This document shows positions 7,244 to 12,787 of a stretch of 12,787 bases of DNA, piece after piece. Made by a program: the position numbers and the translations under genes. The stretch is from NCBI GenBank assembly GCA_002703065.1, contig PAEO01000019.1, positions 90,890 to 103,676 on the forward strand, given 5' to 3'. Under the pieces are notes generated by a model. It was not told the origin of the DNA. It was given only the letters and a program-made list of their open reading frames with translations, and did no database searches. Within the stretch, counting starts at the first letter, position 1. Every line of letters begins with the position of its first letter. The DNA comes from Flavobacteriaceae bacterium (GTDB lineage Bacteria; Bacteroidota; Bacteroidia; Flavobacteriales; Flavobacteriaceae).

Positions 7244-7675
7244 ATGATAATAGGGATAACTTTTAGTTGTTTTGATCTTTTTCATCCGGGTCATATTAAA
7301 ATGCTTGAGGAGGCCAAAACTCAATGTGATTATCTAATTACTGGATTACAAGTTGATCCAACAATTGATAGACCGAAAAAAAATAAACCCGTCCAATCTG
7401 TTGTAGAAAGATATATCCAATTAAAATCTTGCAAATATGTAGATGAGATTGTTCCATACGTTTCTGAACAAGATTTGTTAGATATTTTGACTTCTTTTAA
7501 TATTCATAAAAGAATAATTGGTGAGGAGTATAGAAATATAAATTTTACAGCTAAAGATTACTGTCTAAAAAATAATATTGAAATCTATTACAACAAAAGG
7601 GATCATCGCTTTTCATCTTCAGGACTCAGAAAGCAAGTTTATTTTATTGAACAAACATTAAAAGATGTGTCCTAA
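7244..7675 (+). CDS. Cytidylyltransferase-like nucleotidyltransferase (TagD/RfaE-C type)
   Basis: A 143-residue nucleotidyltransferase of the HIGH superfamily, closest by pattern to CTP:glycerol-3-phosphate cytidylyltransferases and related adenylyl/cytidylyltransferases. The nucleotide-binding segment GITFSCFDLFHPGHIKMLEE (4-23) includes HPGH (14-17), the HxGH catalytic motif. YVDEIVPYVSEQDLLDI (65-81) is the mid-domain pattern, RIIGEEYRN (90-98) corresponds to the -GDDW- region of TagD, and HRFSSSGLRK (121-130) is the C-terminal R-x-S-S/T-S/T signature that contacts the triphosphate. It probably activates a phosphorylated alcohol or sugar with CTP (or ATP); the substrate is unknown. It is the first gene of the rightward operon, and its stop overlaps the next start by 11 nt. 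FAD synthetase and coenzyme A adenylyltransferase were considered, but length and motifs fit TagD-type enzymes better. Confidence 0.85.
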   Translation: MIIGITFSCFDLFHPGHIKMLEEAKTQCDYLITGLQVDPTIDRPKKNKPVQSVVERYIQLKSCKYVDEIVPYVSEQDLLDILTSFNIHKRIIGEEYRNINFTAKDYCLKNNIEIYYNKRDHRFSSSGLRKQVYFIEQTLKDVS

Positions 7676-9464
7676 GTATGATTTTAAGAAACCTAATCTT
7701 AATTATGGTATAGTTGGAAATTGTAGATCTGCTGCACTAATTAACTACGATGCTTCTATCGATTGGTGCTGTCTTCCAAATTTCGATTCTCCATCTGTTT
7801 TCGCTAATATTTTAGATGACGAAATTGGTGGTCATTTTAAAATTTTATGTCACAAAACCTATAATATTACCCAAAAGTATTCTGAAAATACTTGCATATT
7901 AATAACAACCTTTTCAAATAATCATGATGAATTTGAAATTATAGATTTCATGCCTAGGTATCAAAAGGAAAGTGGGGTTTTTTATTCACCTCCTGAAATA
8001 ATTAGAATCTTTAAGCTTTTAAAAGGAGAACCGCGTTTTAAGATTGTGTATGATCCAAGACTTGAGTACTCAAATGGAATAACTAATAATTACATTAAAG
8101 AAAGATTTATTGTTAGTGTAATAGATCAAGAAAATCATGATACACTTTATTTATACACAAGTTTTAATAAAAAAAAATTTTTAAATGGAACTGAGCTAAT
8201 TCTTAACAAAGACCATTTTGTAAATATTTCTTATCATGAAAAAATTAAACCTTTTGAAATAAATGATTCTCTATTTGAGTTTGATAAAACAAAAGTTTAT
8301 TGGAGAAATTGGTGTTCTAAAACACCAACTTTCAAACTATATAATTATGAGATAATTAGAAGTGCTATAACACTTAAGTTATTGACATATGAAAAAACTG
8401 GTGCGGTTCTAGCTGCTGCTACCACATCAATTCCAGAAACCATAGGTGAGGTTAGAAATTGGGATTATCGTTTTTGTTGGATAAGGGATTCATCTATGGT
8501 TATCAAAGTTGTTGCAAAACTAGGTCACAAAAAAATAGTTAAGGATTACATTAAATATATTTTAAATCTAATACCTGAAAAAAATGAAAAACTTCAAATA
8601 ATGTATGGAATTAATGGTGAGAAAAATTTGAAAGAAAAAACATTAGATTATTTGAAAGGCTACATGGGCTCAAAACCTGTACGAATTGGTAATGCAGCTT
8701 ATATTCAAAAACAAAATGATATGTATGGGATATTGATGGATGCAATTCATTTTCAAATAATTAAATTCGATGATGATGATAAACACCAAGAGCTTTGGTC
8801 AATAGTCAAATCAATAGTTTGGGTTGTTGCTAACAATTGGAAATTACCTGACAAAGGTATCTGGGAATATAGAAATGAGGATAGGCATTTTACATTTTCA
8901 AAAGTCTTGTGTTGGGTTGCAATAGACCGGGCAATTAAAGTCTCGAAGTTAATACAAAATGGCATTTCTGCTCAAAAATGGGAACCCCTTAGAAAAGAAA
9001 TTTTTGAGGACATTATAAAAAATGCTTGGAATGAGAAGAAAGAAGCATTCACTCAGTCATATAATTCAGAGCATTTAGATGCCTCAGTTTTATTAATGGA
9101 GCCATATGGCTTTCTAGACTCAAAAAATGAAAAATACATCAAAACTGTTAAAGCAATCGAAAAAGACCTTTTGAAAGACGGTCTTATGTACAGGTATAAA
9201 AACGTTGATGATTTTGGTTTACCCACCTCTTCATTTACTGTTTGTTCCTTTTGGTTGATTGATAGTCTTTTTAAAATTGGTGAAGAAAAAAAGGCAATAA
9301 AATTGTTTGATAATTTATTGAAATTTAGCAACCATTTAAATTTATTTAGTGAAGATATTGACTTTAAATCTAAAAGGATGTTAGGGAATTTCCCTCAAGC
9401 ATACTCTCACTTAGCATTAATTGACACAGCTTTAAACTTTAATTTAAAATTAGACTCAAAGTAA
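7665..9464 (+). CDS. Glycoside hydrolase family 15 protein (glucoamylase/trehalase-like)
   Basis: A 599-residue cytoplasmic enzyme (no signal peptide) of GH15, whose bacterial and archaeal members include glucoamylases, glucodextranases and trehalases. The N-terminal beta-sandwich begins with NLNYGIVGNCRSAALINYDA (11-30) and SIDWCCLPNFDSPSVFANIL, the trehalase-like N-terminal signature. The (alpha/alpha)6 barrel holds IGEVRNWDYRFCWIRDSS (260-277), KGIWEYRNEDRHFTFSKVLC (397-416) with the likely catalytic acid Glu401, and FSEDIDFKSKRMLGNFPQAY (561-580) with the likely base Glu563. The 162-residue spacing of these two is close to the pair I recall for Thermoplasma GH15 trehalases. It is followed with no gap by the trehalose-6-phosphate synthase fusion, so trehalase activity (hydrolysis to two glucoses) is the favoured guess; glucoamylase activity remains possible. 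Confidence 0.92.
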   Translation: MCPKYDFKKPNLNYGIVGNCRSAALINYDASIDWCCLPNFDSPSVFANILDDEIGGHFKILCHKTYNITQKYSENTCILITTFSNNHDEFEIIDFMPRYQKESGVFYSPPEIIRIFKLLKGEPRFKIVYDPRLEYSNGITNNYIKERFIVSVIDQENHDTLYLYTSFNKKKFLNGTELILNKDHFVNISYHEKIKPFEINDSLFEFDKTKVYWRNWCSKTPTFKLYNYEIIRSAITLKLLTYEKTGAVLAAATTSIPETIGEVRNWDYRFCWIRDSSMVIKVVAKLGHKKIVKDYIKYILNLIPEKNEKLQIMYGINGEKNLKEKTLDYLKGYMGSKPVRIGNAAYIQKQNDMYGILMDAIHFQIIKFDDDDKHQELWSIVKSIVWVVANNWKLPDKGIWEYRNEDRHFTFSKVLCWVAIDRAIKVSKLIQNGISAQKWEPLRKEIFEDIIKNAWNEKKEAFTQSYNSEHLDASVLLMEPYGFLDSKNEKYIKTVKAIEKDLLKDGLMYRYKNVDDFGLPTSSFTVCSFWLIDSLFKIGEEKKAIKLFDNLLKFSNHLNLFSEDIDFKSKRMLGNFPQAYSHLALIDTALNFNLKLDSK

Positions 9465-11672
9465 ATGTTTAAAAATATAATTGTTTCGAATAGATTACCA
9501 ATTAAAATTACTAAGATAAACGGTTCATTTGATTTTAAACCATCAACAGGTGGTTTAGCAACGGGATTAAGTTCGATTCACAAGAATAACAGATCATTGT
9601 GGGTTGGTTGGACTGGACTATCTTCTGAAACTATCAACGATGAAGAGAATAATTATATTAATCAAAATTTAAAAAAATTAAAGTTGAGTCAAATTAGACT
9701 TAATAGTGAGGAAATCAATGACTTTTATTTTGGAATGTCCAACAAATGTTTGTGGCCTCTTTTTCATTACTTTATTGAATTTTCAATTTTTGAAAGTAAC
9801 ATGTGGGATGCATATAAAAAGATTAATGAGAAATTTTGTGATCACATTGTAAGTAAAATTGATCAAGGCGGAACGGTTTGGATTCATGATTATCAACTTT
9901 TGCTGTTACCCAAAATGATCAAGGAAATACGACCTGATGTAACAATAGGTTTCTTTCTACATATACCATTTCCCTCATTTGAAATTTTTAGAATTTTTCC
10001 TTGGAGAATTGAGCTTTTGGAAGGTATGCTTGGTTCTGATTTGATTGGTTTTCACACTTTTGATTATCAAAGGCACTTCTTAAGTTCAGTAAAAAGAATA
10101 CTTATGTATGATGTATTGTTCAACAAAGTTATTTTGGGCTCTAGAGAAATTATTGTAAATACATTTCCAATGGGAATCGATTTTAAAAAGTTTTTTAATG
10201 CTGCAAAAGCTCATCAAAAACGGATAAAATCAGAAAAAACAGAGCTTAAAAAACAACTAGAACTACATAAAAAAAATACTGAGGATAGTAAATTTATTTT
10301 ATCCATTGATAGGCTTGATTACACGAAAGGTGTAATTAATAGACTAAAGTCATTTGAGATTTTTCTAAATAAATACCCACAATATCTAGAAAAAGTAAGA
10401 TTATTAATGTTAACTGTTCCTTCCAGGTCAGATGTCCCTGAGTACAAACGTTTAAAGAAAGAAACTGATGAATTGGTAGGTAGAATTAATGGTAATTACG
10501 CTACGGTAAATTGGACACCTGTGTGGTATTATTATAGGGAAATGAAATTTGATGATTTGATTGATTTATATATGTCCTCTGACATAGCAATGATAACACC
10601 AGTGAGAGATGGTATGAATCTGGTTGCTAAAGAATTTGTTGCTACAAGGGTAGATAAAAAAGGCGTTTTGATTTTAAGTGAAATGGCGGGTGCATCAAAG
10701 GAGCTTTATGATTCAGTAACAATAAATCCTTTTGATTTGAATTCCATGGCAGATAGTATTTATAAAGCCTTAAATATGAGTTTAGAAGAACAAATCCGAA
10801 GAAATACAACAATGCAAAAAAGATTAAGTAGATACAATGTTGAGTATTGGGCAAATGCATTCTTTGAAGCTCTTAAAACTAAATCTAAAGATGAAAATGA
10901 AAAATCATTAAAAAAAATTGATAAATCAACAATCGAAATTTTAAGTAAAAAATTTAACAAATCTAAGAACAGAGCTTTTCTTTTAGATTATGACGGAACT
11001 TTAGTTAATTTCCATCACAAACCTGAAGTTGCAATACCTACCAAAGATGTAATTAGTATTCTTAATAAATTAACAAATGATAAAAAAAATAAAATTTATA
11101 TAGTTAGTGGAAGAGATAAATATTTTTTGGATAAAAACCTCAATATTTCATCACTTGGTTTAGTAGCAGAACATGGACATTACATTAAACCACCAAAGTC
11201 TAAATGGAAACAAAATTATAGTTCAGATAACAAATGGAAACAAAATTTTGTGCCTATTTTTCAGGATTTTTCTGACAGAACACCTGGTACTTTTGTTGAA
11301 GAAAAAAACAATTGTTTAGTTTGGCATTATAGAAAAACAGATCCTGAACTCGCAAATATTAGAGTAGTTGAGTTAAAAACAGTAATAAAAAGTATGCTTT
11401 CTGAAAATCTAACAATGTTAGATGGAAATAAAGCAATTGAGGTTACAAATGCAGATGTCAACAAAGGAACTATTATTAATAGCATAATTAATAATAATAA
11501 GTTTGATTTTATTTTATGTGCAGGTGATGACATTACTGATGAAAATATGTTTAAAGCTTTACCCAATGATTCCATTTCTATTAAAGTTGGAAAAAAAAGC
11601 AGTTCAGCAGAATACTTTGTAAAAAACCCAAATGAACTCTTAAAACTTTTTGAATATCTACTAAATAAATGA
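9465..11672 (+). CDS. otsAB: Bifunctional trehalose-6-phosphate synthase/trehalose-6-phosphatase
   Basis: One polypeptide of 735 residues makes trehalose from UDP-glucose and glucose-6-phosphate in two steps. Residues 1-470 are a GT20 synthase: NRLP (9-12), STGGLATGL (27-35), VWIHDYQL (138-145), FFLHIPFPSFEIFR (163-176), DRLDYTKG (282-289) with Arg283 and Lys288 for UDP-glucose phosphates, and TPVRDGMNLVAKEFVA (378-393) with Asp382 and Glu390. Residues 500-735 are a HAD-type phosphatase: DYDGT (508-512) with nucleophile Asp508 and acid/base Asp510, IVSGRD (546-551), AEHGHY (568-573), RTPGTFVEEK (605-614) and GDDITDENMF (687-696). Both halves look complete. The ATG directly follows the GH15 stop, and the 3' end overlaps the next gene by 4 nt (ATGA). 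The fused form is common in Bacteroidota and eukaryotes. Confidence 0.97.
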   Translation: MFKNIIVSNRLPIKITKINGSFDFKPSTGGLATGLSSIHKNNRSLWVGWTGLSSETINDEENNYINQNLKKLKLSQIRLNSEEINDFYFGMSNKCLWPLFHYFIEFSIFESNMWDAYKKINEKFCDHIVSKIDQGGTVWIHDYQLLLLPKMIKEIRPDVTIGFFLHIPFPSFEIFRIFPWRIELLEGMLGSDLIGFHTFDYQRHFLSSVKRILMYDVLFNKVILGSREIIVNTFPMGIDFKKFFNAAKAHQKRIKSEKTELKKQLELHKKNTEDSKFILSIDRLDYTKGVINRLKSFEIFLNKYPQYLEKVRLLMLTVPSRSDVPEYKRLKKETDELVGRINGNYATVNWTPVWYYYREMKFDDLIDLYMSSDIAMITPVRDGMNLVAKEFVATRVDKKGVLILSEMAGASKELYDSVTINPFDLNSMADSIYKALNMSLEEQIRRNTTMQKRLSRYNVEYWANAFFEALKTKSKDENEKSLKKIDKSTIEILSKKFNKSKNRAFLLDYDGTLVNFHHKPEVAIPTKDVISILNKLTNDKKNKIYIVSGRDKYFLDKNLNISSLGLVAEHGHYIKPPKSKWKQNYSSDNKWKQNFVPIFQDFSDRTPGTFVEEKNNCLVWHYRKTDPELANIRVVELKTVIKSMLSENLTMLDGNKAIEVTNADVNKGTIINSIINNNKFDFILCAGDDITDENMFKALPNDSISIKVGKKSSSAEYFVKNPNELLKLFEYLLNK

Positions 11673-12787
11673 TTGCTCAAAATAAAGATGAAAATTTAAA
11701 GCGAAGCTTATCTATACTTTTTAATGACATCTCACTCAATAAAAAAAAATTAGATTTCAAGAAAATTAGATTTTTTTGTGCCTCCAAATTTTTGGAAATT
11801 TTTTCAAATGAAGACATAATATTTAAAGGTTCTGAATATCTCCCATATGAAAGTAATTCAATTTTCATTTATAATCACTTGAATAATCATAAATTTTATA
11901 CAATAGCTAAAGATTTTCAAATCACGTTGGATAGCCACTTTATAAGTAGTAAAATTTTGTACAAGTATTATAATATACCTGGGAACAGGGTTGTTAGATG
12001 TTCACTGCCCCATGAAAAAAGTCATCAAGATTATTATTCAAAATTCAATTATATAAGGGTTTTTGCTCAAAACTTCATCCCGGCTGATACTAATTATAAA
12101 CAAATTAAAAAGTTTAATAGAAAATTTTATGATGAATCAAAAAAATCATTAGAAAACGGAGAGGGTATAATAGTAAGTCCAGAGGGGTTTTCCTTAGACA
12201 CTAAAAATTCACCTGGAGATTTTAAGTTGGGTGTTTTTAAGCTAGCAGCGATGATTAAACCACAACCCAAAATAGTTCCTATTATAAATGTAAATTTTGA
12301 AAATTTAATCTCTAATGGAAACTTTAAGTGTGAGATCAAACAACCTTTTAAAATGAGTGATTACGGGATTTACAGTCCAAACGATATTAAAATCAATTCA
12401 TTCGTCAAAGATTTTAATAAAAAATACAAATCTTGGGTAAATGATTTATTTGTAGAAGATTTAAACTTTAAAAGTGAAATTAAAAAACTATTGATAAAAT
12501 CAAAAAATTTAATGAAAACAGAAAATCAGATAATATTTTATGGAAGTTCAACAATACGTTTATGGGTTAATTTAAAAAAAGATTTTCCAGGTTTTAATGT
12601 TCTTAATTTTGGTTTTGGTGGAGCACTAATAAGCTCACTATCAAAAAATTTTAAAGTAATTTTTAAGAATTTGAATCCATCTGTTATTGTTCTTTACATG
12701 GGTGGAAATGATTTAACTAGATTTGATTCTTATGAAATGATAGTTTCTAAACAATTAAATTTTATTGATGAAATTTATTCCAATTAC
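11669..12787 (+). CDS. PlsC-type acyltransferase fused to SGNH/GDSL hydrolase, C-terminus cut by window edge
   Basis: An open frame of 373 residues that continues past the window. It starts at an ATG overlapping the otsAB stop (ATGA). Residues about 50-255 look like a PlsC/LPLAT acyltransferase: IYNHLNNHKFY (67-77) replaces the usual NHxxxxD box, and SPEGF (170-174) matches the FPEGTR block. GDFKLGVFKLA (183-193) then leads to IVPI (202-205). The canonical Asp of HX4D is Lys75, while a second His (74) lies beside it. After a linker of about 30 residues, 288-373 show the SGNH family: FYGSSTIRLW (290-299) with probable nucleophile Ser294, NFGFGGALISSL (313-324) as block II, and LYMGGNDL (342-349) as block III. 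The C-terminal catalytic Asp-x-x-His is beyond the edge. No signal peptide is seen. The pairing suggests acyl transfer and removal on one substrate, unknown. Confidence 0.8.
   Translation, partial: MIAQNKDENLKRSLSILFNDISLNKKKLDFKKIRFFCASKFLEIFSNEDIIFKGSEYLPYESNSIFIYNHLNNHKFYTIAKDFQITLDSHFISSKILYKYYNIPGNRVVRCSLPHEKSHQDYYSKFNYIRVFAQNFIPADTNYKQIKKFNRKFYDESKKSLENGEGIIVSPEGFSLDTKNSPGDFKLGVFKLAAMIKPQPKIVPIINVNFENLISNGNFKCEIKQPFKMSDYGIYSPNDIKINSFVKDFNKKYKSWVNDLFVEDLNFKSEIKKLLIKSKNLMKTENQIIFYGSSTIRLWVNLKKDFPGFNVLNFGFGGALISSLSKNFKVIFKNLNPSVIVLYMGGNDLTRFDSYEMIVSKQLNFIDEIYSNY

Follow-up and report, generated by a model that had tools for sequence, protein, structure and literature searches.

A conserved family joining a PlsC-type acyltransferase with an SGNH hydrolase, coupled to trehalose synthesis genes in part of its short-form lineage

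The fusion gene and its surroundings

The subject of this report is a gene in which a PlsC-type acyltransferase and an SGNH hydrolase share one reading frame, found in a 12,787-base stretch of DNA (hereafter the window; positions 90,890 to 103,676 of contig PAEO01000019.1, assembly GCA_002703065.1) from a member of the Flavobacteriaceae. The contig measures 117,867 bases and belongs to a genome of 988 kb that is 55.6% complete. The gene lies on the forward strand at 11669..12787 and continues beyond the window, which holds the first 373 residues of a protein of 462 amino acids (aa), the length obtained when the frame from 11669 is extended into the contig DNA to the right. Its acyltransferase domain spans residues 30-262 (11756..12454) and its SGNH domain begins at residue 285 (12521..12787, continuing beyond the window), both on the forward strand and both assigned by domain searches, alignment and fold comparison. 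An earlier reading made from the letters of the window, called here the sequence-only reading, had proposed that the two domains lie in one continuous frame, and this is confirmed.

A phmmer search with the fusion protein returned 525 homologs, and the 120 matches listed among them are 458-471 aa in length with query coverage of at least 92%; the closest named relative, from the Flavobacteriales metagenome-assembled genome (MAG) MED-G118, is 88% identical. Relatives were also collected by scanning one genome per species in 84,980 species for two short peptide patterns, which gave 83 relatives; 80 were retained as loci, making 81 with the window. The scan catches only genes holding either peptide, and the 81 loci are therefore no census. 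The fusion is present in 68 of them (45 of a short and 23 of a long form). The shared length and layout of the 120 listed homologs, together with these 68 loci, rule out a frameshift or assembly join of two separate genes, which the sequence-only reading had named as its possible undoing. PlsC-SGNH is thus a real, conserved and uncharacterised family, with known parts in a little-known arrangement and an unusual acyltransferase motif. Its supposed rarity stood in one sample and not in another, as a sample of 149 genera of the family, searched with a single protein so that distant copies may be missed, held three intact copies and one decayed copy, against the 525 homologs in the protein collection. 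The decayed copy (L086; G020:C18:37358-38047) has residues 19-146 and 357-460 matched side by side, with a stop and a large part gone.

The SGNH domain meets the Pfam cut-off (PF00657/PF13472) and has the SGNH fold, and in fold comparison it resembles PAF-acetylhydrolase (1wab) and sialate O-acetylesterase (7pzg). Its first blocks lie in the window (GSS at 12542-12550, the glycine block at about 12611-12622, GGND at 12701-12712), and D436 and H439 are located past its end, in the extended window locus (L002). Extending the DNA to the right had been proposed as a check for the DxxH motif; DGLH was found near the C-terminus, and all SGNH catalytic residues are present. S293, the glycine block, N347, D436 and H439 are invariant in an alignment of 45 short and 22 long proteins.

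The acyltransferase part has the PlsC fold and resembles lysophosphatidic acid acyltransferase (Thermotoga maritima PlsC, 5kym). The window protein scores 21.6 against PF01553, below the Pfam cut-off of 23, whereas the cut-off is passed by eight of the nine relatives tested that have the domain (L067 fails at 21.3). Two N-terminal helices (residues 3-23 and 30-45; 11675..11803, forward strand) fall inside the range aligned with the T. maritima enzyme, and in PlsC such helices sit at the membrane; the fusion is soluble in layout, as had been supposed.

The active site of this domain is altered. HX4D is the catalytic motif of PF01553 acyltransferases, and typical members carry EGTR at the PEG block. 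In the window protein the motif N69-H70 ... F83-QITLDSHF91 (11873..11941, forward strand) keeps the histidine; the HX4D aspartate is not conserved, and Asp88, at His+18, is kept. SPEG at residues 170-173 (12176..12187, forward strand) is the counterpart of the PlsC PEG block. PEG is found in all 81 loci, and in all of them the residue two past its glycine is Ser instead of Arg; NH, R107, R110, SPEG, S175 and T178 are retained in almost every readable row, with S170 varying in 11, and at His+5 there is Asp in four and Glu in six of the 79 readable loci. The genome scan chose its loci by the patterns [ND]FQITLDS or FK[LI]GVFKL, and 80 of the 81 proteins contain the first, so that the invariance of FQITLDS among them is given by construction and was dropped as evidence. 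The case for the aspartate rests for this reason on two protein searches, among whose matches the rest of the motif does vary. An acid (Asp or Glu) at His+5 occurs in 0 of the 120 short-form homologs listed, and Asp stands at His+18 in 120 of 120. The search with a long/split query lists 120 matches, of which three were not read and seven were read by eye; in the 117 readable ones His+5 is Asp or Glu in 18, meaning that some relatives keep the acid, and His+18 is Asp in 116 and Glu in one. Judged from these residues, Asp88 may replace the missing HX4D aspartate. In the profile match to 5kym, NH and the PEG block are aligned and the Asp88 helix is not; each of the two pieces of this match is weak alone.

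Directly before the fusion lies otsAB, encoding a bifunctional trehalose-6-phosphate synthase/phosphatase (9465..11672; NF011071 957.2 bits, cut-off 634), and the two genes overlap by 4 bases, in accordance with the earlier remark that the fusion starts within the otsAB stop. A GH15-family trehalase/glucoamylase-like gene with a TREH_N domain (7665..9464; PF00723 210.7 bits, PF19291 58.6; 422 bits against the TreH1 model, below its cut-off of 820) abuts otsAB, and overlaps by 11 bases a cytidylyl/adenylyltransferase-like gene (7244..7675; PF01467 51.2 bits, TIGR00125 63.8) that stands first in this tight run, all of it on the forward strand. The cytidylyltransferase-like gene is part of the run at only two of the 81 loci, the window locus and L004, and is therefore accessory. 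On the 3' side of the fusion there is a tRNA-Pro gene on the opposite strand (L002:6987-7062), and then a thioredoxin-reductase-like gene named by eye. A separate PlsC-like gene of 265 aa (L002:10115-10912), about 3.2 kb downstream of the fusion, shows by eye the motif NHQTYYAD, and three downstream genes at L002:12701-16115 are rich in N, as though several strains had been collapsed. Phage records gave no match.

Gene forms and the trehalose neighbourhood

The 81 loci fall into three forms, namely a short fusion (45), a long fusion (23) and a split form (13). The frames measure 353-465 aa in the 45 short loci (the shortest, L040, is broken), 850-908 aa in 22 long ones and 610-697 aa in 14 others; one of these 14, L053 from Maribacter litopenaei, retains the SGNH part and is counted as a long form whose front is shortened. 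L053 may reflect sequencing faults or decay, and so may L040, where otsAB and the fusion are spread over several frames. At each of the 13 split loci the following gene, on the same strand and at a gap of -38 to +17 bases, encodes 199-217 aa; these proteins form a single SGNH-type cluster, and the one of L076 passes the GDSL_2 cut-off. Domains that are fused in some genomes and encoded by abutting genes in others usually work together, and these two presumably do as well. A search with the split form found at least 254 relatives, and 24 of the 120 matches listed are at least 800 aa long.

Long and split acyltransferase proteins carry additional front domains. The cyclic-nucleotide-binding domain PF00027 scores above the Pfam cut-off in seven of seven such proteins tested, and a second stretch also matches it in two of the seven; by alignment, we read the front part of the others as a further divergent copy. 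A Pfam search found no PF00027 in the window protein. The CRP-fold assignment of the front domains rests on Pfam; among the 50 matches listed for a structural model of the long form there are SGNH chains and 5kym and no CRP-fold chains, which carries no weight against them. In the cassette of these domains a Glu and an Arg contact the cyclic-nucleotide phosphate. By eye, in 12 of the 35 relatives, the second front domain has GW (10) or LW (2) where GE is expected, and its usual Arg position holds another residue; the first, in 12 relatives, has GW (9), GL (2) or GV (1), and all 12 rows show an Arg close to the usual position. The front domains may sense something other than cyclic AMP, or nothing.

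The short form is known here from marine flavobacterial genomes, and cultured relatives of the family include Maribacter, Flammeovirga and Sphingobacterium. In five Flammeovirga loci (L076, L077, L078, L080, L081) the split pair is preceded, in the same orientation, by a gene of 1180-1202 aa whose start lies about 3.6-3.9 kb ahead of the acyltransferase gene; its L076 copy has WD40 repeats and a caspase-like Peptidase_C14 domain. Long and split forms from Candidatus Dadabacteria and 'Deltaproteobacteria' MAGs (L065, L066, L067, L073) lie amid Bacteroidota when the tree is rooted at its midpoint, a placement suggestive of inter-phylum transfer or wrong binning. The gene of L010, on a contig titled Gammaproteobacteria, sits with flavobacterial copies, joined to them by very short branches, and probably comes from a mislabelled or mixed MAG.

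Neighbouring genes were compared by tblastn, with the proteins of the window as queries and an E limit of 1e-5, in up to 10 kb of DNA per side. The gene immediately before the fusion, and in the same orientation, is otsAB in 27 of the 45 short-form loci, the window included (it is broken off at the contig end in L003, L009 and L012 and broken in L040), whereas neither otsAB nor the GH15 gene was found at any of the 36 long or split loci. Of these 27, 24 have GH15 next to otsAB, divergently oriented in 22 and on the same strand in two, and the other three end at a contig edge. The gap between otsAB and the fusion, readable in 26 of the 27, ranges from -20 to +27 bases and is -4 in ten, with gene starts taken as those of the longest frame. 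The fusion proteins of the linked loci share 38-99% identity (median 49%), and their next downstream genes fall into 11 groups, one a singleton. When the acyltransferase domains are placed in a tree, the short form makes up one side of a starred branch, and the otsAB neighbour requires three changes; linkage is seen in 1 of 11 and 26 of 34 rows of the two main short-form branches. Since otsAB occurs in both of them, an early link with later losses and separate gains are both admissible.

The trehalose coupling is a real but lineage-bound trait. The link drawn by the sequence-only reading holds at the 27 loci and does not extend to the 18 short-form loci without otsAB or to the 36 others, yet 72 of 80 genomes carry otsA at some position. 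The 36 long and split loci rule out that the gene serves trehalose in every relative, and because these and 18 of the 45 short ones show no otsAB in the DNA compared (up to 10 kb per side), the family as a whole is not a dedicated trehalose enzyme. No other conserved neighbour emerged when neighbours were clustered and one member from each of ten groups was named by Pfam: two amidohydrolases, WD40-caspase, Sortilin/BNR, M28 peptidase, aconitase, VWA, AAA_5 ATPase, BamB/PQQ-like and ABC transporter groups are each limited to one sub-lineage. Two larger groups (c3 and c5) span several lineages with no fixed position.

At the level of whole genomes, otsA (PF00982) occurs in 37 of the 44 with a short form and in 35 of the 36 with a long or split form; two of the short-form misses, L009 and L012, had the phosphatase end of otsAB on the contig. 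The 18 unlinked short-form genomes are all drafts, with otsA elsewhere in 13 and none found in five. The backgrounds differ widely, at 58 of 395 genomes in the phylum sample, 44 of 149 in the family sample, 56 of 157 in the sample of the order to which Marinoscillum belongs, and 91 of 93 species of Sphingobacterium. All carriers in the family sample have otsA (p 0.025 for the three intact copies, 0.007 with the decayed one), and without the window's genome these values become 0.08 and 0.02. In the order sample otsA occurs in nine of nine carriers against 56 of 157 (p 6e-5), but seven of the nine are 69-99% identical to one another, so that the carriers amount to about three lineages (p 0.04), or two without the centre genome (p 0.12). 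In the phylum sample an acyltransferase-profile search of the 395 genomes matched the window's own genome alone, and no two-by-two test applies. As proof of a trehalose link co-occurrence is thus strong in its raw form but weak once close relatives are collapsed and the centre genome omitted, and in Sphingobacterium it is uninformative. A functional tie between the fusion and trehalose is plausible but not proven.

A proposed role in membrane-lipid remodelling

The reading we favour, tentatively and at somewhat less than an even chance, is that of a cytoplasmic acyl-remodelling enzyme at the membrane interface, acting in the manner of a Lands cycle and co-expressed here with trehalose synthesis. 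The SGNH domain would take an acyl group off a membrane lipid and leave a lyso-lipid, which the PlsC-type domain would re-acylate, completing such a cycle within one chain. The protein would be cytoplasmic, since it has no sign of a leader and its relatives start with cytoplasmic-type domains, and its PlsC-like helices would hold it at the inner membrane. In those relatives the CRP-fold domains would provide regulatory input, with both catalytic domains in one longer protein or in abutting genes. The short form has no front domains and in 27 of its 45 loci directly follows otsAB, one control perhaps having been exchanged for another; membrane remodelling and compatible-solute synthesis would then rise together, plausibly under osmotic (salt) or cold stress. 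A bolder version, which we regard as rather unlikely, is a single-chain bacterial Lands-cycle enzyme, uniting a hydrolase with a lysophospholipid acyltransferase whose catalytic layout would be new (His-X17-Asp replacing HX4D), joined to a sensor in cultured relatives and coupled to trehalose synthesis in ocean flavobacteria.

Several observations weigh against the favoured reading. The nearest SGNH structures act, by name, on acetyl groups, and a lysophospholipase L1 structure appears only at rank 49. With the HX4D aspartate not conserved, the acyltransferase may be inactive or perform other chemistry. The front domains are without the contact Glu, and the second without the Arg, which makes a sensor role only putative, and the acyltransferase-domain tree does not separate loss from gain of these domains. 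Finally, otsAB is missing from the neighbourhood of 18 of the 45 short-form loci, and five of those 18 draft genomes yielded no otsA.

The sequence-only reading had favoured an acyl-trehalose or other glycolipid enzyme that both adds and trims acyl groups, in which one domain would acylate trehalose or trehalose-6-phosphate from OtsAB and the other would edit or transfer the acyl group. Its idea of adding and trimming is retained here; its trehalose product finds no direct support, and the folds resemble lysophosphatidic acid acyltransferase and PAF-acetylhydrolase or sialate O-acetylesterase. The close coupling at 27 of 45 short-form loci argues for it, as does the frequency of otsA among carriers (72 of 80 genomes against 58 of 395 in the phylum, nine of nine against 56 of 157 in the order), although the latter shrinks with the clustering of carriers and with removal of the window's genome, as given above, and 91 of 93 Sphingobacterium species have otsA regardless. 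OctT, an SGNH-annotated mycobacterial sugar octanoyltransferase, shows that such proteins can acylate sugars, yet it transfers acyl groups to (di)glucosylglycerate and hardly to trehalose, the latter transfer being termed insignificant (PMC4555173). The position of all 36 long and split relatives away from otsAB, with 54 of the 81 loci unlinked, argues against trehalose as the substrate of the family; we infer that a membrane lipid is likelier, and regard acyl-trehalose modification as a weaker rival of the Lands-cycle-like reading and as improbable.

To a similarly low degree we credit the possibility that the SGNH domain is the sole enzyme and that the PlsC-type domain, its catalytic Asp lost, is a lipid- or acyl-binding module that docks the hydrolase at the membrane. 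The HX4D aspartate is indeed missing in all 120 listed short-form homologs and the window protein falls below the Pfam cut-off (21.6 against 23), but the histidine, an acid at the fixed spacing of 18 and SPEG are all kept, which docking would hardly need, and eight of nine relatives exceed that cut-off. Least probable, in our estimate, is a hitch-hiking gene, that is, an ordinary lipid enzyme of the lineage whose location after otsAB has no functional meaning. Such genomes have short intergenic gaps generally, and 18 of 45 short-form and all 36 other loci are unlinked; against this, the otsAB-fusion pair (with GH15 in the 24 loci that reach that far) persists among proteins of 38-99% identity while the flanking neighbours differ.

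Comparison with known systems

PMC9132575 describes the pathway by which bacteria rapidly turn over the acyl chains of membrane lipids as unknown. The fused, sensor-linked and split forms described here, including those of cultured Maribacter, Flammeovirga and Sphingobacterium, make this question testable. The family may allow bacteria to remodel their membrane lipids, offers an acyltransferase with an unusual active site, and suggests how ocean bacteria may link membrane change with compatible-solute synthesis. It is already on record in databases under automatic names (GDSL-type esterase, lysophospholipase L1-like esterase, 1-acyl-sn-glycerol-3-phosphate acyltransferase, cyclic nucleotide-binding protein), and full-text searches of one open-access library yielded no description of the PlsC-SGNH architecture, most subscription journals lying outside that library.

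Compared with PlsC/AGPAT enzymes (PF01553; 5kym), the HX4D aspartate is here not conserved, the TLDSHF helix with its Asp at His+18 is kept, and the domain is fused to or paired with a hydrolase, with CRP-fold domains in relatives. Compared with SGNH/GDSL enzymes of the PAF-acetylhydrolase or sialate O-acetylesterase type (1wab, 7pzg), the hydrolase is here C-terminal to an acyltransferase. AT3/OafA-SGNH fusions likewise join an SGNH domain to an acyltransferase within a single chain, but the acyltransferase here is of PlsC type, and the AT3 domain (PF01757) had no Pfam match in the window protein at E up to 1. OlsF, a bifunctional ornithine-lipid acyltransferase with two acyltransferase domains and no hydrolase, is alike in being a two-domain acyl enzyme for membrane lipids, and OctT is without a PlsC domain. 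The Lands cycle, in which a phospholipase A is paired with a lysophospholipid acyltransferase, would be the same pair of reactions as proposed here (PMC9132575). The same paper puts forward PlaF of Pseudomonas aeruginosa as a bacterial hydrolase for such turnover; PlaF is a membrane-bound phospholipase and a protein of its own, and its acyltransferase partner is called unknown there (PMC9132575), whereas in the fusion described here both domains are carried by one chain.

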